Positions 22,230 to 42,548 of a stretch of 64,000 bases of DNA are shown in pieces. Position numbers and translations under genes: made by a program. This stretch comes from Caenorhabditis elegans. Lineage: Eukaryota > Nematoda > Chromadorea > Rhabditida > Rhabditidae. The stretch lies in NCBI RefSeq assembly GCF_000002985.6, contig NC_003283.11, positions 11,718,001 through 11,782,000 of the forward strand, written 5' to 3'. Positions within the stretch are counted from its first letter, which is position 1. Every line of letters starts with the position of its first letter. Below the pieces are notes generated by a model. It searched no databases and had not been told where the DNA came from. It saw only the letters and a program-made list of their open reading frames with translations.

Positions 22230-25200
22230 ATGATGATCGCAGCTCCGACATCATTGTCCAAGAACGTCGAAGACGGTGGCAACTTCTCAGCAGATTCACC
22301 GCCATCACTCAATTCTGATGACGAGCAACTCGACGACGCTCCGTTTTTGAGTCATCAGTTGTCCGACGATCACGAGTCATTTTCTGAGGTAAGAGAGGGT
22401 TTTCATGAGTACAGTATTCAGTCAAGCTGTGATTAACAAAAGTTCTTTTGGTTCCGTGTTTCTTTAAAAAAAGGTTTGATTTTGTGAAGTCGAAACGTTT
22501 TTTTTTCTCGCAAATGCATTTTTAGCAATGTACAACATTTTTTGAAAATAAAGGAGCAAACTTTATTCATTAAAACTATAGCTTCCTTCAGAAGTTTGTA
22601 CCTAAAATAGAACTCTTACTTAAAAGTACATTCAAATTTAGCGTAAAGTAAACTGCCACTCGTGAGAATTTGGGATCTGCTGAAAATTTAACCTCGTAGT
22701 TTTTGTCTCATAGGCACAGATAGGTTTTTTGATGGCTTGCACTGAATTTTTTCAAGCGTTGCCATATGTTATAGAAAATGATCTGCAAGTGACAGTACAA
22801 CTTTTAATTAAAAATAGAAACTTATTGACATTAAATATTCATTTTTTAGAAGTTTCTACGCAACATTCTGACACACGATTATCAGAATCTGATGCCACGT
22901 CGAAGAGAAAAATTTGTTGAAATCACGAAAACTGTCACTGTCACTGAGGTTTGTTTTTTTTTTGTTTCTTTTCGAGTTTCTTCTCTCAAAAGTCAGGTAA
23001 TAATCAATCAATTAATGATCAGTGACATTGTTTGTCTGATTCTTCTCTTTCTTCTTTTATTTACCATCCTTTGTCAAGTTCTTCGTTTTCATAATAATCT
23101 ACCATGTCGATTCTTTTCAATTTTGTTCCAACACCTGCAAAAACCAACTTCCACACTTTCAATTCATATTTTCACATCTTGATACCCCATCATCATCATA
23201 ATTCTTTTCAATTCACTACTATCTTCAAAACCAATCAAGAACCGACTACTGAACTTTCACCCTCAAACTGATCACTATACCTGCGCAACACACTTTTTCT
23301 TCTCGGTTTCTTTGAATAACTTTTCATTTCACTTTCAGATTTTTGTGGAATGTATTGAAAGGGATGAAAGAAAAAGTAATATGAGATTATAGGAAATTGC
23401 AACAAAGTAATAAAATATGAGAAGGTTCTATGAAAGTTTCCAAAAAAAACTATTTTACGGAACTTCCGACTTTAAGATTCTTTCGATTTTCGAAGAAAAG
23501 AAATTAATACTGAAAGCTAGCATTTCAAAAATTAAACATTCAGTAGACTGATTGTTCACATTGATTTCTATAAAGCGTCTGAAAAATCAAACAATAAAAA
23601 AACTAGAATTTTATAAAATTTCGATGACGAAATTTCGATTAATACGAAACTCATAACAAAGATTCTAAACAACTTGTTTTCGCTGGTCGGAATAACATGA
23701 ACTTATCGCAGTTAACAAAATTATTTTCATTTTGACCTTCATTTTCTTCTCCTATCATATGTATTGTGATTGTTGAAAATAATTCATAAAATAGGTGTTT
23801 GAAAGGCGAAATGTAAAAAATAATTTTAATTCAGATAGTCAACGGAGCACCAGACAAGCATCCGTCTTCGTGTGAAGTTAAAGTGACAAACGTTTCGCCG
23901 GCTGGACCTCATCCGGTTAACGTTTCCATAAAACATTTACACGAGAAATGGCATTCTTGTGAAGAGTTGGACAGATCAGACAACGGAGAAGACTTGGGAA
24001 AAGGGACCGTAATTCGTATTCAAGAAACACATAAACCATTCAATTGCACTCAAAAGAAACACCAAACAAATAAATTTGTATATGAAGACGTGATTAACAC
24101 AAAAGTAAGAACCAAGTTAGAATGGTTAATAATTTATTATAATTTTAGATGGAGAGCTCAACAAAATCTCGTCAACCTCCATCAGCCAATAGTACACTTT
24201 TCAACCGGTCTAGTGATAATATCATAGATTTAGAGTTTAGACATCCAATTCTTAGAGAGACATCTGAAAAGAAATCAGAAAGAACAGAACAGAAAGCAAA
24301 TGGAAATAATGGTACAAGGCGTCGCTTTGCGGATTTAAGGAAAAGAGTGTCGACTACTACAAAGACTTCTGTAACTGAAACAGAGAATGTGACAACTACA
24401 AGAAGAAGTAGCAGTGCTCATAGTACTCATTCAAAGAGGTAAATTTAAATCATCTTTAAGATTTTTTTTCTATCTGGACCTCGGGTTACAAGAAACATTG
24501 TTATCGGTTTTTTTGTGGCAAAATCATTGATAGATCCTCAAAACATTTTACGAAGTCTGTTAATACTGAAATTATCTTAAAACTTACTTGCAAAGCTTAA
24601 AATAAACTCTTAAACAATAATGGTTTTACTTCCAGAAGCTCCGCAAAACCAGAAGTTCATACACTGTATTACCGGAAATTTGTGGACGAAGAAACAAAAG
24701 GAGCAGATGATGATTCAAGTGATTCTGGAAGTGTTATAATTTATAGAGATGCTGTCACACGACGTTCTCGCTCAGCTGATCCTCTTCAGAATTCATCTCC
24801 AACAATGTCACCGATTGCTCCACCAAGAAAACGATTAGGAAGAGAAGAATCATTGCATTATTATCGAGATGATGACGAAGTTATTCAAGAGCAATCAAGT
24901 ACTGAGAAGAGTCGAAGAGTTACTGTAAAATCTCCTGAACCAGGAAATACATCAGTTTCTATGAATGATAATGTTGAAGGTCGAAATTTAACTGCAGGAA
25001 TTACATCTATATCTATGAATGATTCGTGTACAGATACTTCATACGAGTCAAGATTTTCTACAATTCCACGGGCAAGGAGTTCACCTCCAGGAAATCATCG
25101 GGTCAATCATATTCAGGTCAACGTAATCGGTCCGATAAGAGTTTCAGAACCGGAAAGTAGGCATCCAGTCGTTGGAAGTGTAGGCGAAGATGTAACAATG

Positions 25201-28200
25201 GATATTTATATTGAGAGAAGAAGATCTGGATCAAATCCAAGAAGAGATTCACATGTTTCTTTTGAAACATTAGAAGCTCCGCCTAAACCACCAAGAAGAT
25301 CAAAATATGATGAACATATTCGAATTGGAGATCCAATTGCCACATCTACTCCAATGACAACAATCGAAAGAAAACAGACAAGAGAAGAAAGAGTTTCAAC
25401 TGAAAGTGGTCAATCTAGTAGGAAAAGTACAAGAAGTTCTCGTCCTCCAGATATAAATATCATTGAGTGTGAAACCTTCCTCAAAGAAACACGTTCTCCG
25501 GCAAGAACTCCAGCTACTCCAATTGTAGTTATCAATCAGACTCCATCTTCACGAAGAAGTTCACAAGATTTGCTCGGCGAGCCAGGGCAAAGACGCCGAA
25601 AGAGCACAGTAACAGATATTGATTGGTATGCTGCATTTAATATGAAGGTTAGTTGGTTAAACCGGTTGTATAGAGGATTATTGACGCAATTTATTCGCAA
25701 TTCCAAAAAAACGGTTATTATTTTGTGTCACTTTCGTTTCTCAAAGTTCTACATTTATAAAATGGTGTTCGATATTTCTAAAATAGTTAAAATATTCAAA
25801 AGAAAAAAGAAAAAGAAAGTGAGTATTTTTTAATAATTTAATTTATAAACGAGTTTTAAACATTTTCAGGATCCATCTTCACCAACTAAAATTGCTCGTC
25901 CTTCATTTGCTTCTCATAATGAAGAGAGAAAAGCTTCGAGAGATCTCAGAAGACGTGCTTCAGATTCTTCCATGATTGGAATTCCACCAGCAGATATCGA
26001 TTTAAATCAGATTTTTCTGTGTACAGTCCCACCGGAAATCAAGAAAGATGAAAAGTGTCAATGCAATGCTTGTCGATTAATTCGAATGTCTGAAGCTGAG
26101 AGAGCAGTTCGAATTGAGAGATCGGGTCGGTCAAGGCAGAGTAGATCATTTACCAGAACCACTGAATTTGTAAGCTATGCAAACCTAAAAAATCTGGGCA
26201 GACGGTTAAAAGTTCAAATTATTGTCTTTACCATGGCATTTGTTCAATGATAATCGTTTTAAAATTGAAATTATTTTTGGCACAGTTATTATTATTTGTC
26301 GATTGAGTGTCGTTTTGATCATAAAATCAGGTTTAAATTCTTAATTTTCTAAACGTAAACAATTTGCCAAAGTTTGTGTTTTAGATGCAATACTAATAGA
26401 GAGTGCAAGTCTAATAGAAATACCATATTAATAGAAAAAGCACGGTAAACTTGAAAATCAAAGTTTAACTTGTACTAAAAGGCATATTAATTTTTTACAA
26501 AAGATCCTATCAGAAAATAACATTCTTCATTTTTCAGGAAACTCGTTCCAGTACACTTCCATCAAGACACCGAACTGCTCCAGTTGACATTGAACTTGAA
26601 GATATTTTCAATCCAAAGCCATTCTCCCATCCATCTGCCAATTCGAAGCCTCCGACACCTCCAAATCGTCGTCGTCATCCTCCATCTGCTTCAGTTGCAC
26701 ATTCACAATCATCCTTCGTTGATGAGTCACCGTCGCAACATTTTGTCACAACTACTATCGATCGTAACCAGGTGACACCGGTGACTACTACCACAACTAA
26801 CATGAGGGAATCAGGTCCTCTGTTGCATGAAAATTCTCACAATCAGTTGCTTTCATCTTCTGATAACTGGGTTGCACAGATGATGAACGATGCTAGTGAA
26901 TGGGAAAATAATGTTTCTAGTCGAAAATCTTCAATATTATCAACTTCTTCAACATCAGCTAGAAAGGCTTCAGTTGCCAGGAGAATTAGTGTAGATGAAT
27001 TGACAAAACCCGAGAAAAGAAAGTCTCGTCAAGCTGTTCCTCTTCCACCATCTGATGTTAGTATTGATGATATTTTCACTGCATTGACACCAAGAAAAGA
27101 AGAAGTTCAATCAGAAAGAAAAACATTCATAGTGACACGAAAACAGAGAGCACAGGACGTTGATGCTATCGATTTTGAAAAAGATCGTGAAACACCAATA
27201 GCTCCCCCAAGAAGTGGAAAACGAAAAAGTGATGCAACTGAAAATCAGCCAGAAATTACTTTGGAACTGGATGTTGAAAAACACGAGATTGATTCTTCAA
27301 AAGTTTCCACTTCTACTATTAATTTGAATGACGAAAGTATGGAAACACGGAACACGAATGATTCAAAAGACTCATTCGATGATGAAGTCAACCCAAGAAA
27401 TCAACGTTTAGTCGTTGAGATACCATTTTCTGAACCAAGAGTCACATCAACTGCTACAATTCAACTAGAATCTTCGGATGTCGCTGGAGAAAACTCTGAA
27501 AACAAGAGACCTGTCATTTCAATGAGATCCAAATCAGAAATTGCCAAGAAGGAGAAAGATGCTCAACGATCTGGTTTTGTTATTATCCCTCACTCTAAAG
27601 AACATATTCTTGATGAATCCAATATTTCGATGGACGATGTGTTCAACACAACTCCGCATGATCAATGTCGAGTCCCGGATATTGATGCAGATTCATCTAA
27701 GCACACATCTTCTGATTCGAGAGAAGTTTCAACTGTCACTATCAATTTGGACAATGTTTTCCCTACGGAAGAGCCAAAGCTTGTAGCGAAAGATAACTGT
27801 GAAATAGAAGCGGAGGAAGAACGGATAGGAAAGCGAATTAAGCAATTTGAACGCACAACTGGTGAACAAGAAATTTCGAAAAATTCTGAGCCAACTGAAG
27901 ATGAGATGCCTGATGAGAAAGACCACAGAACATCAGCAGTCAGTATTGATTTGGATAAAGTGTTTGTTCAAGGAACTGCTAAAAAGCCTGAAAATGATGA
28001 ATTCGACGAAAAGATAAAAAGAGGAATTGCTGAGTTTGAACGGTCAAAGCAAGAGAAAGAAGTGCAAAGATCTGGTGTAGCTGAAACTTCTCACTCTGGC
28101 AAGCACATTTTTGATGAATCTAATATCTCAATGGATGATGTGTTCAATACATCCCAGAAGTATAAATCAGATGAGAAGTTATCTACGCCAGAAAGGACAG

Positions 28201-31200
28201 TGGAGCCCGAGGTTTCGACGGCTACTATGAATTTAGATAACATCATTTCTGCATCGGGAATTGCAACAAGGGAGGAAAACACCAACGTACTCGAAGAAGA
28301 GGAAAGAATTCAGAAGCGAGTCGAAGAATTCAAGAAAACTACAGAAAACCTGGAAATCCAAAAAGAAGTTGTGTTAACCAAAGAAGAAGTTGACAATTCT
28401 GATGTGAAAGAACATAGAACATCTGCTGTCAACATTGATTTGGAAAAGGTTTTCATTCACGGATCGTCCAAAAAGCCTAAAAATGACGATGAGAAGATAA
28501 GACGTGGAATAGCTGAGTTTGAAAGAACAAAACAAGAGAAAGAAGCTCAACGATCTACTGTAATTGAGACCTCTCAATCTAACAGTCGCATTTTCGAAGA
28601 ATCGAGTATTTCGATGGACGATGTATTCAATAACTCTTTGCACAATGAAAGCCAAGTATCTGAAATTACAGAGGCTTCTGATCCATCTGACCTAGTTTTA
28701 ACTTCTACTACTTTCCATAACGTCATTGAAGAAAAAATCGATGATGATGTAACAAAGACCGACAGTAATGTCGAAGAGGAGAAGGAGCAAGTTCGGTTAA
28801 GAATTGATGAATTCAAAAGACCAACAGAAGAGCAAAATCTCCAAAAAGAATTTGAATTGACTAAAAAAGAAGAAGAATATTCTGTGAAGATGGAAAACAG
28901 AACATCCGCAGTCAGTATCGATTTGGACAAAGTTTTTGATCAAAGCTCCAAAGAAACAACTGTAAGCAATGAAACTGACGAAAAGATAAAAAGAGGAATT
29001 GCTGAGTTTGAACGGTCAAAGCAAGAGAAAGAAGTGCAAAGATCTGGTGTAGCTGAAACTTCTCACTCTGGCAAGCACATTTTTGATGAATCTAATATCT
29101 CAATGGATGATGTGTTCAATACATCCCAGAAGTATAAATCAGATGAGAAGTTATCTTCGCCAGAAAGGACAGTGGAGCCCGAGGTTTCGACGGCTACTAT
29201 GAATTTAGATAACATCATTTTTGCATCGGGAATTGCAACAAGGGAGGAAAACACCGACGTACTCGAAGAAGAGGAAAGAATTCAGAAGCGAGTCGAAGAA
29301 TTCAAGAAAACTACAGAAAACCTGGAAATCCAAAAAGAAGTTGTGTTAACCAAAGAAGAAGTTGACAATTCTGATGTGAAAGAACATAGAACATCTGCTG
29401 TCAACATTGATCTGGACGATGTCTTCATTCAAAGATCTTCTAAACATCCTGAAAATGACGAAGACGATGAGAAGATAAGACGCGGAATAGCTGAGTTTGA
29501 AAGAACAAAACAAGAGAAAGAAGCTCAACGATCTGCTGTAATTGAGACCTCTCAATCCAACAAGCACATTTTTGACAAATCAAACATTTCGATGGATGAA
29601 GTATTCAACGAATCGCAAAATGGCCAGAAAGATTCGAGTAATATTGATATGAAGGAAACTGATATGCCAGAAAAAGAAAGAGATGACCAGAGATATGTAG
29701 ATGTGCACAGGGACAAGAAACCTTTCGAAAATGGAGAATTTGAACCAACGTTTAACGGCTCTAAAATATCGAATGAGCCGAAACAAATTTCAATCACAAC
29801 TATCAATTTGGACAATGTTTTTCCTACGGAAGAGCCAAAGCTTGTAGCGGAAGATAACTGTGAAATAGAAGCGGAGGAAGAACGGATAAGAAAACGAATT
29901 AAGCAATTTGAACGCACAACTGGTGAACAAGAAATTTTGAAAAATTCTGAGCCAGCTGAAGATGAAACGTCTGATGAGAAAAAACACAGAACAGCAGCAG
30001 TCAGTATTGATTTGGATAAAGTGTTTGTTCAAGGAACTGCTAAAAAGCCTGAAAATGATGAATTCGACGAAAAGATAAAAAGAGGAATTGCTGAGTTTGA
30101 ACGGTCAAAGCAAGAGAAAGAAGTGCAAAGATCTGGTGTAGCTGAAACTTCTCACTCTAGCAAGCACATTTTCGATGAATCTAATATCTCAATGGATGAT
30201 GTGTTCAATACATCCCAGAAGTATAAATCAGATGAGAAGTTATCTACGCCAGAAAGGACAGTGGAGCCCGAGGTTTCGACGGCTACTATGAATTTAGATA
30301 ACATCATTTTTGCATCGGGAATTGCAACAAGGGAGAAAAACACCGACGTACTCGAAGAAGAGGAAAGAATTCAGAAGCGAGTCGAAGAATTCAAGAAAAC
30401 TACAGAAAACCTGGAAATCCAAAAAGAAGTTGTGTTAACCAAAGAAGAAGGTGACAATTCTGATGTGAAAGATCATAAAGCATCTGCTGTCAACATTGAT
30501 TTGGACGATGTTTTCATTCAAAGATCTTCTAAACATCCTGAAAATGACGAAGACGATGAGAAGATAAGACGCGGAATAGCTGAGTTTGAAAGAACAAAAC
30601 AAGAGAAAGAAGCTCAAAGATCTACTGTAATCGAAACTCAATACTCTAGCAAGGACATGTTTAATGAATCTGATATTTCACTGGATGTTGTGTTCAATAC
30701 ATCCCAGAAGGATAAATCAGATGAGAAGTTATCTTCGCCAGAAAGGACAGTGGAACCCGAGGTTTCGACGGCTACTGTGAATTTGGATAACATGGTTGCA
30801 CTGTCTAAGGAAAGAAGGAAAGAAAACAACGAAACACAAGAAGAAGAGGAACAAATCCAGAAGAGAGTTGAGGAATTTAAAGAAAGTACGGAGGAGCAGA
30901 AAATCCAGAAATCTATTGAGTTAACGAAAGAAGAATGCACCTCTGATGAGAAAGAACTCAAAACCTATTCTGGAAGTATTGATTTGGATAAGGTCTTCAT
31001 TCAAGGATCTTCTAAAAAGCCTAGAAATGATGAATCCGATGAAAGGATCAACAGAGGAATTGCTGAGTTTGAAAGAACGAAGCAAGAGAAAGAAGCCCAA
31101 CGATCTGTTGTAGTTGAGACTTCTCCATCCAACAAGCACATTTCAGATGAATCGAGCATTTCAATGGATGAAATCTTCAGCAGGTCCCAAGACAACAAAA

Positions 31201-33844
31201 GTACTTCTAATTTTGAAAAGTCAGGTTCAATACCAATTATAGTCCTGCCTGGAGAAGAAAAAGAAGTAGCATCTGCTAGTATCAATTTGAATGGTGTATT
31301 TTTGGAAGGAAAACAGAAGACATCCACTGATTACGGGAGAGAAAAGGTCAATAAGGTTCAAGAGAATAGCGGATCTTATTCTACTCGGCATGCTATGGAT
31401 GGTGCTAGCATATCTTTGGATGATATTTTCAATACTTCATCAACTTCACAAAAGACTGAAACTGACAAAATTGATAACTCTCAAGAATTTCCTCAACTTT
31501 CCAAACCAGTTCTCAAATCTTCGATTTCTCTGGATGACTTATTCAACAACACTTCAGGAATTGAAAAGACTACATCCGAGAAGACAACAACTACAACTAC
31601 CACTAGAACTGAAACAACAACTGACACTTATTCAAAGCGGTCAACATCAACTCTTGTTGATCGTTTTGGATATGAAACTGCCACACCTCCAGCCATTTCA
31701 ATCGCAGCCATATCTTTTGATCAACCATCTTCTTCTTCGCCCCAAGCTTTTCCTCGTAGTAAACATCAGAATCTTTCTTCTCTAACAGTTCCAGGAAAAT
31801 GGAATGAGTCAATGATGTCAAATACATCAACAATAAGTCTAGATGATTCATTCAATAATTCATTTTCAAAATCTAACACTTCACAAGTATACGAACCAAG
31901 AATGAGAAAACCATTGACTCTTCCTGTTGATAATTGGATTGATAATTTGGTATCAGAAGCAACAAATGAAGCCACCAAAGAAGCACCGAAAACTCCAAAA
32001 AGTGACACTCTCAACTATTTCCGATCACCAACAAGAATAAGTCAAGAGATTAAATATGAATGGGTAGCTGATATGATTGGAGATATTGATAGAAAAAACA
32101 AAGGAGGACATCAATCAGAAGAGGAACATCTCCAGAAACATGATAGCACATGGGTATCAAGTGTCGTGTATCGACCAACATTAGAAACAAGTGCATATAC
32201 TTTACGATCAAGTCAACTCAACACAGACTGCAAAATGGAAATTGATTTAGAAAATGTATTTGATGAATGTTTAATGGGAAAGAAAAAAGATGATGAACAT
32301 TGTGAATGCTCAGCTTGTCGACTCACAGAACAAGAGTTGGAAGAGATCAAAAAGAGAAAGGTGAGTAGTTTGGGAATTGTTTACTTTTACCGCTGACAAT
32401 ATCAGTTTTGGAATAAGTTTTTTTTTCAAAGGTTAAATTACATTTCAATTAATTCCAGATCGAGCTTGAAAACATGACAAGTGAGCAGAAAATTATTATC
32501 TCCGAACCATCAGATAGAAGAAAATCAGTAGACTTTTCGAACCCATCGCAAATTTCACTTAATGAAGTTTTCAGCCCTGAAGGTTTGTTTCAAAAATCTG
32601 AAAAACAGCATGCAACATTAATTTCAAAATTAATTTTTTAGTTCCTCTTCGTATCGAAACCGAACACGCCCCAGCACCTTCTACGTCATCACCTCCTCTT
32701 GAGTCAACTAGAATTTATTACCTTTCTCCAAAAGTATCTGAGACGGTTACAACAACTCATCAATGGAAAGATGCTGGTATTCCAATGGATGAAATCTTCA
32801 GTCCAGTATCGTCTACCGCAGATGGTAATCGTAGATTCTCAAACTTCTACGAAGACCGTAGTGGATGGGATACTATTGGAAGTGAAGATAGTGGAGTTAT
32901 GTCAGGTGGTGATAGAGGAAGAAGAAGATCAACAAGAATTACGGATCAAGTTATCGATGAAGCATTCCAAGGAATTTTCGATTCACAACCATCAACTTCT
33001 ACAGCTCATCCGAAGCCAGTGAGAACTGAGTGAGTTTTTAAAGAATTCTTTTTAAGGGCATTCTCTGTTAGATACACTTTACATTTAAAATGACTTCAGA
33101 ACTCATTATGACGATTACTACATTACTTCCCTTCAACAGGAAGATCTAGATGCAACTGATTCTGAAGTTGATGGAGAAAATCTGGATGTGAGCACATTTG
33201 TGGATGATATTTTAGGAAAGAGCATGGATGAGGCTGCATTTTTGAGTAGTACTAAATCACTCAGAGGTAAGAAACGTCTTCTAAGAATCAAACATTATAT
33301 TCTACTTTCAGAGCACACAGATACATCAATCGATCGAAAAAAGTCAGGGGAAAAAGTTCATTCATACTACCGAAATCGAACGGATACATCAATAGACAAA
33401 CGCTCAAAACCCGAAGTAATCACTGAAGATTTGGAGACGTCAGAACTACAAGATGAAATTATGAAATTAGTATTCGTAGAGCCATCAGTTTCTAAATCTG
33501 ATTCATCAGCTAACATCAAAGCTTCTCAAAACAAATCCACAACAAAACCATGTGACGAAGAGTTGCTGGAAATTGAAATCAAGTCAGAATACTTCCTTAT
33601 CAAAGGATCCTACTCACTTCTTATTCCAAAATCAGACCCTCTTGGAAAAATGTTACAAGTGAGCCTCTCTCTGCAATTGCTCGTCACTGTGTTTACGTAC
33701 TTTCAGAAACTCCGCGAGCAGAACGATTCATTGGCAACTCTTGATTTCTCACTTACAAGAAAGCTCAAAAAGTTATTAGTCAATTGTATTCGGGAAAAAG
33801 CAGGCAGCTTGGATATGGTATCTATGTCTTCGCAGTGTATGTAG
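22230..33844 (+). CDS. Giant acidic repeat protein with IxLDxVF motifs and CxCxxCRL modules
   Basis: I do not recognise this gene. Twelve exons join in frame: 22230-22388, 22850-22948, 23835-24104, 24149-24438, 24636-25647, 25870-26169, 26538-32360, 32459-32582, 32642-33029, 33100-33266, 33312-33658 and 33707-33844, giving 3,038 residues. The start is the first in-frame ATG (MMIAAPTSLSK). The protein is mostly hydrophilic and looks disordered: Ser/Arg-rich early, then acidic and Lys/Glu-rich. Exon 7 (5.8 kb) holds tandem repeats with three related cores (TATxNLDNxF, SxDLDKVF, SISMDDVFN) separated by helical stretches such as EEEERIQKRVEEFKKTTE and IRRGIAEFERTKQEKEAQRS. Two Cys modules, CQCNACRL (exon 6) and CECSACRL (end of exon 7), flank the array. 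The C-terminus (KSEYFLIKGSYSLLIPK, FSLTRKLKKLLVNCIREK) looks more folded. No signal peptide or membrane helix is seen. A scaffold or cytoskeletal role is a guess only. Confidence 0.88.
27745..31140 (+). repeat. Coding tandem repeats, ~160-200 residues per unit
   Basis: The 'SIDLDKVF' core recurs near 27945, 28430, 28915, 29405, 30005, 30495 and 30970, so at least seven units of about 480-600 bp are present. Some units are nearly identical at the DNA level: 28005-28426, 28977-29398 and 30063-30484. Others are diverged. This points to recent duplication on top of an older array. Confidence 0.9.
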
Positions 33845-34003
33845 ATTTTAAAAAATACGTTTAAAAATAAGATTTAAAAATCTAACAAGAATTCAATTGA
33901 ATTAAATAATCGATAAAATCGTAATTATATATTTTACGGGACTAATTTCTAACATTTTATAATTATCGGTCATAATTAATTTCTTATTTTCCCATTTTTA
34001 AAT

Positions 34004-36025
34004 ATGGGAAATACAATGATCAAAGTAACAAGACCGACTAGTTCTTGTAAGTTTTTCGATTGAATCCTGCCACAAATAATTCAGTTCAAATTAATTTTAG
34101 AACAACTACATATTTCATTGACTGAAAATTGTCACTACAAACAAAAAATCCCTTTAAAAATTCACATGTTTTACACATATTTTTAGATGAAGGACTCTCG
34201 TCTCGCGGTCAGAGTTTAATCGAGTCCATCGATCACGCTTCGGCTACATTTTTGAAGATGAACGTAGACAAATACGAACCAACACGCAATCCTAACGGAG
34301 TCGTTAACTTTTGCACTGCCGAGAATAACATTTGCACTCCGCTTTTAGAAGATCGGTTCAAACATCTTGAATTGTTTTTCCCAAACATCGAACATCTAGT
34401 GAGATATCCACCAGCTGGGGGATGGCCTGAAACTCGAAGAGTTCTTGTCAAATATTTCAAAGAGTTTATGGGTGCTGGAGTGACAATTGATGAGCTTGTA
34501 TTGACAGCTTCAACGAGAACTGGTTATGATGTTACAAGCTATTGCTTGTTTGAACAAGATGGTAAGAGAGAATGCAATAAAATTATTGTATGATGGGTTT
34601 TTGACAGACATTTTGTTGACCAATGGACCGATTTACACTGGTACCATTTCAAATGTGCAGGAAAAAGCTCAATGTCAAGTGGTGTGTGTAGAGGTATAAT
34701 ATGTCATTTGAAAAAATATAGAAATATTTAGTGACAGTTAGAATGTGCTTTAATTCCTAACTTGTTAGCGTAAAACCTAAAATATGTTCTCGATTATCTT
34801 CGAATCCATTTCACTTTTTTTTTTAATTTTCAGACTGATCTTTCCAACCCACGTCTTGATGTTAAAATGTATGAAGCAGAGTTGAATCGACAAATCGCCC
34901 TTGAGAATACAGTTTCTGGTGTAATTATTGTTAATCCACACAATCCTCTGGGTGTGACGTTCCCTCCTGAACAAGTCATCAGTCTGTGTAATTGGGCTTC
35001 CTCGAAAAACTTGAGAGTTGTGATTGACGAAGTTTTTGCAAACAGTGTCTTCGATAAATTGAATTCAAAGTTCCGACCATTCCTGTCTTATCGTCATCGT
35101 CTACACCGTCCTGATAGTGTCGCATGGTTATGGAGTGTTAGCAAGGATTTTGGACTTCCAGGACTCAAGTTTGCAGTGATACATACAACGAATGAAGGAC
35201 TTTGTCAAGCGGCAACAAAACTGCAAATGTACTATCCGTGCTCCCCATTCGTTCAAGATTTTGCTGTGAACTTATTGTCTGATTCAGGTAAAATAACTTC
35301 AATTTTGATTTAACATGTTTTACAAAAAACAAAAACTTGACGGGAAGTATAGTCTCTTATATTTTCAGAATGGCTACGAGAGTTCCATCGTGAAGTGAAC
35401 AAACGTATTTCAATCCACTATCGCTACACTTCTGATAATTTGAAACGTTTGGAAATCCCATTTATTCCAGCTCAAGCAGGAATATTTGTTTTTGCCGACT
35501 TCTCCAAGGTAGATCATTTGAACTTACAAAAATTTGATGATGATTCACTCTGATCAAAAATCGCTTACGTTTTACTTACTATGATTTTAGGGGAAAGAAG
35601 ACGAATTATATTCAATAATCATCTTAAACTTTTATAAACAAGTTTTAAAGTGATTTTGTGGTTCAAAGATTACATGAGCAGAATATAATAAATGTTAAAT
35701 CAGAAACAAAAAAATAAAGTGTAACTTTATCTATTTCGGTTTCAGTGGAAAAAAATAACTTTCAAGTGATTTTTTGTTTCAAAATACAACACGGATATCA
35801 TTTTAGCATCTTACTTCGTTGGATTCTGTAGGAGAACTTGCATTGTTTGAGCGTCTTGCTGAAGCAGGAGTAATGCTGACTCCGGGTGTTCATCAGAAAT
35901 GTCACGTGTTTGGATGGTTCCGCATTGTGTTTGCCTGCACGAAAGAAGAGCTTGAAGAAGGATTCAGAAGACTTTACATCCATTTGGGAAGTCAACTACA
36001 ACCCGTAGGAACTGTTGAATATTAA
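34004..36025 (+). CDS. ACC-synthase-like PLP-dependent aminotransferase (class I/II)
   Basis: Fold-type I PLP enzyme resembling 1-aminocyclopropane-1-carboxylate synthase and its animal relatives. The animal proteins generally do not make ethylene precursor, so the substrate is unknown. Exons 34004-34046, 34187-34561, 34608-34693, 34834-35287, 35369-35508 and 35807-36025 sum to 438 residues in frame. Visible motifs are YPPAGGWPETRRVLVKYF, the cofactor-loop region LVLTASTRTGYDV, NPHNPLGVTFP (PLP-binding Asn/Pro), VVIDEVFANSVF (Asp that pairs the pyridine nitrogen), WSVSKDFGLPGLKFAV (Schiff-base Lys in SKDFG) and FGWFRIVFACTKEELEEG (Arg for substrate carboxylate). All key residues appear intact. 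It starts only 160 bp after the giant repeat gene on the same strand, a spacing typical of worm operons. Cytosolic by lack of a signal sequence. Confidence 0.88.
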
Positions 36026-39667: not shown

Positions 39668-40592
39668 ATGCGGCCCGAACACTTGTCTTTACAATTATTG
39701 GCTTGGATATACTTGATTAATGGGAATCCAATTGTTCAGAAAGGGGGACTTGGTAGGTTTCTGATTTTAAATTTGTTAATTGTAACTTTAATGTTTTTTA
39801 GAAGTTCTGGATATTACTGACTCAAATGATTTGTCTGTTCGTCAAAGATTCGAAGAAGTTATACGTCTAGATTGTGCATCACAAAGACGAAAAGCATTAA
39901 AAAGAAAAACTGACGGAGATGCTAGAATTTATATTCCAACATGTTCTCCAAAAAACTCATTGTAAGTTTCTTCGTATACATATTTGTTAAGTTTACTCAA
40001 TTTTCAGATTATATGATAAAGTGCAATGCTATGATGTTTCAATTTATTGTTGGTGTGTGGACGAACTGTCCGGAGAGCCAAAGTTAGGCTCATCGACAAC
40101 AAGAGGAAAACCAAAATGTGAAGAAACTCCAACAACTACAGTTGCTCCAAAAAGAGTGAGAAGAAACAATCGGTGTAAGGAAAAGAAGAGAACACGATTT
40201 CTGAGGCGATTAGTATCAACTCTCAAATCAGAAATGATAATGAGTGGAATAAATGCAACAAAAGTTAGCAGAGATTCAGCAATTAGATGGAAGTTTAATC
40301 AACTCAATATAAATCATAATAATGTGCTTGAAAGAAGTGAATGGAAACCTTTTAAATCAGTTTTGTTAGAATGGAAGAATGTCAGACAGTGCTCCAGAAA
40401 TCTTTTCAAAACTTGCGATCTGAATAAGGATAGAAAATTGACATTCGATGAATGGAGAAAATGCATTGTTCAAGGTGTGTTTTTGAGAAAAATCATCTGA
40501 TTTCTCATTTAATTTTTTCAGAAATCAACCGAGTACCAGCCAAACGTCCAGATCAACTAAACCCATTCCTGTACATTTTAAGATCAGAATAA
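39668..40592 (+). CDS. smoc-1: Secreted SPARC/SMOC family protein SMOC-1
   Basis: Secreted matricellular protein; known in C. elegans as a positive modulator of BMP signalling. Exons 39668-39752, 39802-39962, 40009-40474 and 40522-40592 sum to exactly 260 residues, the length I recall for SMOC-1. A short hydrophobic leader (LSLQLLAWIYLI) follows the ATG, which lies just after an ATTTTTCAG acceptor. Residues about 50-110 form a thyroglobulin type-1 domain (LDCASQRRKAL...YIPTCSPKNSLYDKVQCYDVSIYCWCVD) with the diagnostic CWCV. A basic linker (KRVRRNNRCKEKKRTRFLRR) leads to the SPARC-type extracellular Ca2+ domain. One EF-loop there is clear (DLNKDRKLTFDE); the other (NINHNNVLERSE) lacks acidic residues at some ligand positions. 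The last exon ends FLYILRSE. Confidence 0.93.
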
Positions 40593-40946: not shown

Positions 40947-42548
40947 ATGGTTGGTGACGGTTCACTTTCTTCTGAATCAGTTATTGGTCTTCACACTTAC
41001 AATAGTGCAGCCGATCTAACTAGTGGACATGTGTAAGTTTTCAAGGTTTTCAATAATATTTAAGCTTAATTCATTTTCAGTATGACACTTGAAAAAAACG
41101 AGTATCTATTTGATCTGAACACAAAAAACGCTTGCACTCGTCCACTGGATATTTTTATCAAACTTCTTTCAACTTCCTCTGTCGGAAAAGAGTTTTCACA
41201 TTTCTCGTCTCTTCCATTGTCACGACTTCGCACTGTTGACGCTTTCTTTGATCACCCCGAATTGAATAAATTTGGAGAAATTCAAGTTTACGAGCAGACG
41301 CGTGTTCGAGCCGTTCATCGTCAAGGTAATTCAAAAACTTCAGAATAAAAATATGTAAAACTAGTGGGGCGTTACGTCATTACACATTTATTTACTACAT
41401 TATATTATTTTAGTATCGCAATTTATGTCAAGTCGTTAGTGAAATTTTAACAAATTAACTGAATATTCCACGATATCTCTATTTTAGTTCCACGCCTTGA
41501 TGTGGTGGCAGTACGTGAATTTCAATGTTTGACGTTCAAAAACAGAAAAAAAGCGTTAGGTCTTTCATGTAGGCGCCAAAACACCTGCCTGCCTCACCTT
41601 AAGGCGACCTTCGCCTGCATCGCGCACCGTCTATCAAAATAAATATGAAAATACCCCCTTATGGCTGTCACAAGGGACACTAAAAAGACGGAATGTCTAG
41701 ATTCTGACTACCCGTCTAAATCCAATCTTCTACACATTTCAGGTCATAATTACCTCAACTCAAGTTGGATCGACGGATATCGTGAAACTCGAAAATTCAT
41801 TGTCGCCCCGTCTCCTATGTCTGAAAGTGTTGCTCAATTTTGGCGGTGTGTTTTCGATCGTAATTCTCTTATTGTGGTGACACTGTGCGAGCTCCTGGAT
41901 GAAAAGGGAAAACCATTTGTGCCTGTAAAGATTGGAGAACCATTGGTAATTGATGATATGACAATTGAGTTGGATAACATTCGAAAAGTTCGACCGGCAA
42001 CTTACTCTTCTGTTCTGAAGATTTCTGAGAAAGGTGTCGAATCTCATAAAACAGTGATTCTTCTGACCTATAGTGGATGGGGAAAACTTGGTTATCCACA
42101 GAAACCATCTGATATTCTGGATTTATTGGCAGATATGAACCATATGAGAACAATTCTCAGAAAACAGGGACTTGAAAAGAAGATTTTTGACGACAGTCAA
42201 CGGACACCAATGACATTGGTGTGTTTTGATGGATTCAGTAGAAGCTGCACTCTTGTTGCTTTGGATATTCTTTGTCAACGTCTGACAGCCTCTCATGAAA
42301 TTGGTACTCCATTTGTTGATATTCTGGATACAATTGCTAGACTTCGAATGCTTCGTGGTGCAGCCTGCATGGTGATACGTTCTTTATAACTAGATTAAAA
42401 TTAATATTTTCAGAAAGCCGAGCAGTTTGTCTTCTTATCAATGTCAGTTCTCGAATATGCCATTCGTCATCATTTGGTGAATGTGGAGGATCTCGGTAAA
42501 ATCAGCTTGAATGGGTTTATCATTCGCAATAATCCTGAATCTTACTGA
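40947..42548 (+). CDS. Protein tyrosine phosphatase-fold protein, probably WPD-deficient
   Basis: A PTP-domain protein of about 365-378 residues. Exons 40947-41032, 41081-41325, 41701 (or 41743)-42371 and 42414-42548 are in frame with either third-exon start. Recognisable PTP blocks are HNYLNSSWIDGYRETRKFIVAPSPMSESVAQFWRCVF (split here by the reader: 'YINAS..DGY' then 'FIA..P....FWR'), TVILLTYSGWGKLGYPQ (WPD-loop region), and LVCFDGFSRSC (the CX5R loop with Cys and Arg kept). The canonical WPD is WGK, so the general acid Asp is missing, and the usual His before the Cys is Val. It probably acts as a pseudophosphatase or a slow enzyme. The KNRY region is weak, and the exon border there is uncertain because a dispersed repeat lies in the intron (41572-41640). 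Worms have many such diverged, often germline-expressed, PTPs. Confidence 0.85.
41572..41640. repeat. Dispersed repeat in the PTP-like gene intron
   Basis: GC-rich stretch with 'ggcgccaaaacacctgcctg' and 'cttcgcctgcatcgc', typical in composition of the 'cctgcctc' repeats seen often in Caenorhabditis introns. It is markedly GC-richer than its surroundings. Confidence 0.55.

Follow-up and report, generated by a model that had tools for sequence, protein, structure and literature searches.

The 64,000-nucleotide stretch of the Caenorhabditis elegans genome analysed here (bases 11718001–11782000 of contig C5, taken to be chromosome V, called the window below) contains a gene encoding a putative giant repeat protein of 3038 residues. 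The gene model occupies positions 22230–33844 of the window (chrV:11,740,230–11,751,844) and consists of twelve exons; this gene and all its features lie on the forward strand. Exons 1–6 are at 22230–22388, 22850–22948, 23835–24104, 24149–24438, 24636–25647, and 25870–26169, and exons 7–12 at 26538–32360, 32459–32582, 32642–33029, 33100–33266, 33312–33658, and 33707–33844. The model was built by hand from the sequence alone, and its start codon and isoforms are predicted. All its junctions are of the GT/AG type, a single frame is open throughout, and the sole stop codon is terminal. Exon 7, with 1941 codons, coincides exactly with the interval that an earlier reading of the same DNA (the original prediction) had assigned to an unrecognised protein built on a repeated motif. 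The exon is bordered by TTTCAG/GAAACT and AGAAAG/GTGAGT and sits within a 1975-codon open frame. Its coding status is supported by the length of this frame and by the ratio of nonsynonymous to synonymous substitution rates (dN/dS) of its internal repeats, which is below 1 (0.33 overall).

The protein contains 21 strict copies of the predicted core I-x-[LM]-[DE]-x-[VI]-F, 20 of them encoded by exon 7, against a mean of 0.007 and a maximum of one in 1000 shuffled sequences. A relaxed pattern matches 29 times (26 in exon 7; shuffle mean 0.42, maximum 4), and the addition of two drifted copies, VNLDNMV and ISLDDSF, brings the list to 31 cores, 28 of them in exon 7. The peptide VFVEPSV near the C-terminus, a 32nd match to the loosest pattern, was excluded as not core-like. 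Isoleucine opens 26 of the 31 cores; the third position is leucine in 22 and methionine in eight; the fourth is aspartate in 25, glutamate in three, and asparagine in three; the sixth is valine in 19 and isoleucine in nine; and the last is phenylalanine in 27, isoleucine in three, and valine in one. The shuffle figures are only descriptive because the patterns were derived from this very protein. The background was also estimated from the whole genome (100,286,401 bases in seven contigs), in which a looser DNA form of the motif occurs 2585 times in 100.3 Mb (1284 times on the forward strand and 1301 on the reverse) and a reversed-pattern control 1136 times (570 and 566). At this rate, a single strand of exon 7 would be expected to hold approximately 0.075 occurrences, so that the 20 strict copies lie far above the background. 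The heptamers ISMDDVF, ISLDDLF, ISLDDIF, IDLDKVF, INLDNVF, ISMDEIF, and IDLDDVF were not found in the literature searched.

Within exon 7, positions 27624–31178 hold a tandem array of seven units, which start at 27624, 28125, 28608, 29097, 29586, 30186, and 30675, and which are followed by an eighth S core (31158–31178). The cores are named S, N, and D after the residue at their second position (serine, asparagine, or aspartate). Each unit is 161–200 residues long and contains, in this order, an S core, an N core, a first helix, a D core, and a second helix. In the typical unit 4 (29097–29585), these are ISMDDVF, MNLDNII, EEERIQKRVEEFKKTTE, IDLDDVF, and DEKIRRGIAEFERTKQEKEAQRS. The fixed order of three variant cores that had been predicted is intact in six of the seven units, but the N slot of unit 3 has decayed to TTFHNVI. 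The 14 charged helices, two per unit, span 27816–31115 and follow the consensus [DEK]-E-x-[IV]-x2-[RG]-[IV]-x-[EQ]-F-[EK], in which the glutamate at position 2 and the phenylalanine at position 11 are invariant (14/14). They had been described as separating the cores, which is correct for the positions after the N and D slots, but the interval from S to N contains no such helix in any unit. The proportion of synonymous differences (pS) is 0.10–0.16 among units 2, 4, and 6 and between units 1 and 5, and 0.40–0.70 for the remaining pairs, indicating that these two groups are recent block duplicates. Similar blocks of DNA are offset by, for example, 972 and 2061 bases, which points to unequal crossing-over involving several units. 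The resemblance between blocks at a distance of two units or more (units 2, 4, and 6, and units 1 and 5) suggests that unequal crossing-over in 27624–31157 has been recent, and that the copy number may vary between strains.

The cores are not restricted to the array, in agreement with the prediction. When residues 1045–2262 are removed, the remaining 1820 residues contain four strict and ten relaxed cores, compared with shuffle means of 0.004 and 0.14, and these numbers were reached in none of 5000 shuffles. In exon 7 the cores outside the array include IELEDIF (26589–26609) and VSIDDIF (27057–27077) upstream, and ISLDDIF (31410–31430), ISLDDLF (31524–31544), and ISLDDSF (31833–31853) downstream. 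The core INLNGVF (31281–31301) aligns with the N slots and is probably the N-slot remnant of a decayed eighth unit, so that nine of the ten outside cores are clearly dispersed. ISLNEVF (32552–32572) is in exon 8 and IPMDEIF (32779–32799) in exon 9. Of the example cores listed originally, ADIDLNQIF, QISLNEVF, and IPMDEIF belong to exons 6, 8, and 9, outside the interval to which they had been ascribed.

Cores and helices are conserved at the protein level among the units. When the 21 unit pairs are pooled, cores have a dN/dS of 0.08 and helices one of 0.09, against 0.58 in linkers; the S core of the next unit, at the end of the alignment, was counted as linker, which lessens the contrast between cores and linkers. 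The synonymous divergence of cores is no lower than that of linkers (pS 0.63 versus 0.44). With the helices set aside, 22% of the residue comparisons differ in cores and 48% in linkers. In a control in which the placement of the elements was shifted circularly, cores and helices together rank first of 159 placements, and cores against linkers, with the helices dropped, rank first of 119. By these measures the helices are constrained as much as the cores. The most conserved seven-residue stretch among the units is GIAEFER of helix 2, with a proportion of nonsynonymous differences (pN) of 0.

The predicted disorder of the chain is supported by its charge-hydropathy profile, in which 20 of 21 blocks have negative values, on the disordered side. 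The sole block on the folded side, with a value of +0.227, corresponds to the last 38 residues of the protein (33728–33841). An AlphaFold2 model of unit 4, calculated with seven alignment rows, has a mean predicted local distance difference test score (pLDDT) of 60.6 and a predicted template modelling score (pTM) of 0.20. It contains long helices at residues 52–89 and 121–150, with block means of pLDDT up to 85 and 91, respectively, and the remainder is mostly coil.

The statement that no named domain has this pattern holds for Pfam and the PDB as searched. None of the Pfam-A families reaches its curated cut-off in the parts of the protein that were scanned, where the queries of one of the two scans extended a few codons into introns. 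The best match in exon 7 is GDH_HM1, which aligns with a charged segment of the array and scores 20.2 bits (E 0.00055) against a cut-off of 21.2; three weaker matches follow. Searches of PDB sequences with exon 7 found none at E values up to 1; a profile of the unit has JetA as its best match (E 0.098, not significant); the best value for the cysteine modules described below is E 0.4; and the end of exon 7 has no match at E values up to 10. Exon 7, exon 6, the end of exon 7, one half-unit, and exon 11 were searched against the C. elegans genome for paralogues, and the locus itself alone matched, once an E 0.98 match to exon 11 had been set aside; the match counts of this search are lower bounds. 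The array gave at least 64 pattern matches in GTDB genome contigs and at least 58 in IMG/VR, of which none was confirmed. Since these collections are prokaryotic and viral, the result has no bearing on conservation in nematodes. Among short linear motifs, a loose KIX-like pattern fits 30 of the 31 cores but is very permissive, as is the first half of the LD consensus discussed below. The LC3-interacting region pattern fits two of 31, the PIP box and PP1 patterns none, and the clathrin box L-O-x-O-[DE] (where O is hydrophobic), AP2 DP[FW], and FxDxF patterns none of 31 each, whereas a loose DxF fits 12 of 31. A general literature query on multivalent repeat scaffolds returned nothing specific.

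The three core classes differ in a further respect. At position 2 the 31 cores have serine in 13, aspartate or glutamate in ten, asparagine in seven, and proline in one. An acidic residue at position 5, three places after the serine, is present in 12 of the 13 S cores but in only four of the 18 others (Fisher p 0.00017, for copies that are non-independent). Outside the array, all five serine cores have the acidic residue at +3, compared with 57 of the 378 serines of the whole protein. The pattern S-x-x-[DE] is that of protein kinase CK2. The sequence suggests that S cores may be phosphorylated by a CK2-type kinase and that D cores may mimic the phosphorylated state.

These features are consistent with a mostly disordered scaffold of about 3000 residues that would dock its partner through a two-part module repeated along the chain, a reading in which we have moderate confidence. 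The repeat composition, the disorder score, the lack of a Pfam or PDB family, and the constrained, recurring cores are what such a multivalent docking scaffold predicts. Multivalent motif scaffolds are a kind of protein and not a homologous family, and a repeated motif under constraint in a disordered chain is what was found here. Binding, its mode, the partner, and phosphorylation are all inferred, as is the location of the scaffold, which is probably cytoplasmic. The first part of the module would be a short peptide that docks, [S/T/N]-I-[S/N/D]-[L/M]-D-x-[V/I]-F. It would probably adopt a helical turn on binding, with its I, L/M, V/I, and F side chains in one hydrophobic groove and the aspartate in contact with a basic residue. 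The second part would be a pre-formed charged helix, with its I-x3-[I/V]-x2-F face providing a second contact. Seven tandem units together with the dispersed cores would enable one chain to hold many copies of the partner. Because the classes differ at position 2 (serine with an acidic residue at +3, neutral asparagine, permanently acidic aspartate), each unit would offer a switchable, a neutral, and a fixed site. KNL1 with its MELT motifs, Xin, and APC are likewise disordered scaffolds that repeat a degenerate docking motif many times along a single chain, under phospho-control in KNL1. However, the sequences of their motifs are unrelated to the worm cores, and the worm array alternates three classes in a fixed order and pairs them with helices.

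Several observations weigh against this docking scaffold. Cores alone, with the helices retained in the comparison, rank only sixth of 159 circular shifts, because the helices compete with them. The dN/dS values rest on pairs that are not independent, since several of the units arose by recent duplication. Four of the seven N-class cores end in isoleucine or valine instead of phenylalanine, and within the array this class has the lowest conservation of the three (pN 0.19); not every core may therefore dock. Outside the array, the link between serine and the acidic residue is not significant relative to the other cores (5/5 versus 2/5, p 0.17). In the AlphaFold2 model, the cores are helices of three to six residues with low confidence (block means of pLDDT approximately 53–61), and some of the negative charge-hydropathy blocks are close to zero. 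The docking scaffold that had been proposed retains its repeats, its disorder, its lack of a family, and constrained cores inside and outside the array, but the cores are not singled out over the equally conserved helices. Its description as dozens of identical motifs was too strong, given three distinct classes and a helical element conserved to the same degree. The constrained pair of helices in each unit, the core-and-cysteine modules that flank the array, and the six W-x3 motifs were absent from that description.

The helices could be the functional element themselves, acting as coiled coils or docking helices, with the cores as secondary caps or phosphorylation sites. The invariance of E2 and F11 in all 14 helices and the position of GIAEFER as the best-conserved stretch speak for this possibility; it is nevertheless unlikely, since ten cores fall outside the seven units, in parts of the protein that have none of these 14 helices. 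Alternatively, cores and amphipathic helices could bind one another and form a network or condensate, collecting no foreign partner. The recurrence of acidic cores and charged helices on one chain, separated by disordered spacers, would provide two possible types of sticker, but in the model of the unit no overall packing is predicted with confidence (pTM 0.20), and we regard self-association as fairly unlikely. The array may also be a neutral expansion, in which copies spread by unequal crossing-over with no role in docking. Units 2, 4, and 6 and units 1 and 5 are indeed close in DNA, as expected of recent block duplications; the strongly uneven constraint, with cores and helices differing from linkers, and the cores outside the array make a purely neutral origin distinctly unlikely.

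Several known binding systems resemble parts of the repeat. The D-class sequence V-x-I-D-L-D could be a SUMO-interacting motif, and [VI]-D-L-[TSDE] is present in eight of 31 core neighbourhoods. However, [VIL][VIL]x[VIL] fits none and [VIL]x[VIL][VIL] one of the 31 cores, and SUMO binding leaves the conserved phenylalanine unexplained, which makes this explanation very improbable. Binding of actin by the helices, in the manner of beta-thymosin or WH2, is more improbable still: both the worm helices and those of thymosin are amphipathic with an I-x2-F element, and helix 2 partly matches the thymosin helix by eye (I-x2-F-[DE]-[KR]-[ST]-K), but LKK[TVS] occurs nowhere in the protein, and there is no thymosin or WH2 match in Pfam at E values up to 1. 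A further comparison is with LD motifs, such as those of paxillin, DLC1, and RIAM, which are likewise short acidic-hydrophobic peptides that start with [L/I]-D-x-hydrophobic-hydrophobic. It is quite improbable that the core is itself a paxillin- or RIAM-like LD helix docking on a helical bundle of the talin, FAK-type FAT, or vinculin-tail kind. The first half of the published consensus I/LDxOOxOO (PMC10281804) fits 24 of the 31 cores if methionine, too, is accepted at the first place. However, the full consensus with its second hydrophobic pair is present in only one, for which reason the protein was not filed as an LD-motif protein. The additional conserved hydrophobic residue of the worm cores, an isoleucine, lies two places ahead of the L/M instead, and the cores also differ from LD motifs in their conserved phenylalanine and in occurring in dozens of copies, many of which belong to tandem units that also contain a helix of their own. 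LD helices join helical bundles, with their aspartate on a basic residue (PMC4938799, excerpt), and by analogy the cores may work in a similar way, by adding to helical bundles. The KN motif of KANK, LDLDF, which binds talin R7, shares the alternation of hydrophobic and acidic residues ending in phenylalanine, but in the excerpted text of PMC10281804 that phenylalanine immediately follows the second aspartate, whereas it is three places after the aspartate in the worm core, and a beta-hairpin precedes the KN helix.

The tandem array is flanked on each side by a module that combines a core with four cysteines. In exon 6 (25996–26079), the core IDLNQIF is followed by C-x11-C-x-C-x2-C (CQCNACRL), and at the end of exon 7 (32241–32324) the core IDLENVF is followed by C-x10-C-x-C-x2-C (CECSACRL). 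The modules are 36% identical. CxCxxC-R-L and its spacing from the phenylalanine of the core are the same in both, whereas the first cysteine, which precedes CxCxxC by 11 residues in exon 6 and by 10 in exon 7, is shifted by one and unaligned. Eight of the 21 cysteines of the protein belong to these putative twin metal-binding modules. Modelling of the latter region from its single sequence gave an unreliable structure, with a mean pLDDT of 41.5 for the end of exon 7. A second short motif, W-x3-[MLVIF]-[MVIN], holds six of the ten tryptophans, against a shuffle mean of 0.39, and six copies were reached in none of 5000 shuffles. These are WYAAFN in exon 5 (25624–25641), WVAQMM (26868–26885), and a group of four within 31800–32168: WNESMM (31800), WIDNLV (31935), WVADMI (32061), and WVSSVV (32151). 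The C-terminal exons 10–12 (33100–33844) have no assigned family. A likeness of the C-terminus to ETV6 was rejected as chance because E 0.0015 was reached only with engineered triple-ETV6 chains, and single domains gave E 38 or worse.

Pfam matches around the gene include a guanylate cyclase to the left, an Ndc1 nucleoporin, and a class I/II aminotransferase immediately downstream; a Thyroglobulin/SPARC-type exon, a tyrosine-phosphatase exon, an acyltransferase, and a glutathione S-transferase are also nearby. The stop codon of the repeat gene (33844) is about 160 bases ahead of a possible ATG (approximately 34006) of the aminotransferase gene on the same strand, which is near the spacing typical of a C. 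elegans operon. No AATAAA was found in 33801–34300. The tyrosine-phosphatase exon (41649–42389) retains C-x5-R (VCFDGFSRSC) but lacks the usual histidine before the cysteine and the aspartate of the WPD loop (WGK), and may therefore encode a pseudophosphatase. Literature queries by the names of neighbouring genes found nothing on the repeat gene. The name R31.2 was considered and dropped because sma-1, which we take to be R31.1, the cosmid neighbour of R31.2, should be the spectrin-repeat cluster at C5:11.904–11.914 Mb, about 150 kb away. R31.2 is described as a body-wall-muscle protein, probably thick-filament-associated, in an excerpt of PMC3096668, and is also mentioned in one of PMC5598954. 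The Thyroglobulin/EF-hand exon at 39991–40500 agrees with T04F3.2 as described in the excerpt of PMC3360750, so the repeat gene is probably near cosmid T04F3. T04F3.1 is listed merely as a 'hypothetical protein' in the excerpted part of PMC3530454, and T04F3.2 is among the entries in that of PMC1950093.

The gene encodes a giant, strongly constrained repeat protein in the genome of a model organism, with no family assignment in the libraries searched. Its repeat supplies a definition of the motif for finding the partner and other proteins that bear it. As a bolder proposal, which we consider unlikely, each unit of the docking scaffold would be a three-state register (CK2-switchable serine, neutral asparagine, and phospho-mimicking aspartate, in fixed order and repeated seven times), through which a kinase would grade the occupancy by the partner from a constant minimum up to complete filling of the sites; the module would then represent a new class of docking motif with a helical co-docking element, perhaps only in nematodes. 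If docking takes place as described, the protein would be a natural titration device, with approximately 30 graded copies of the motif per chain, each of which could be edited in the host organism.

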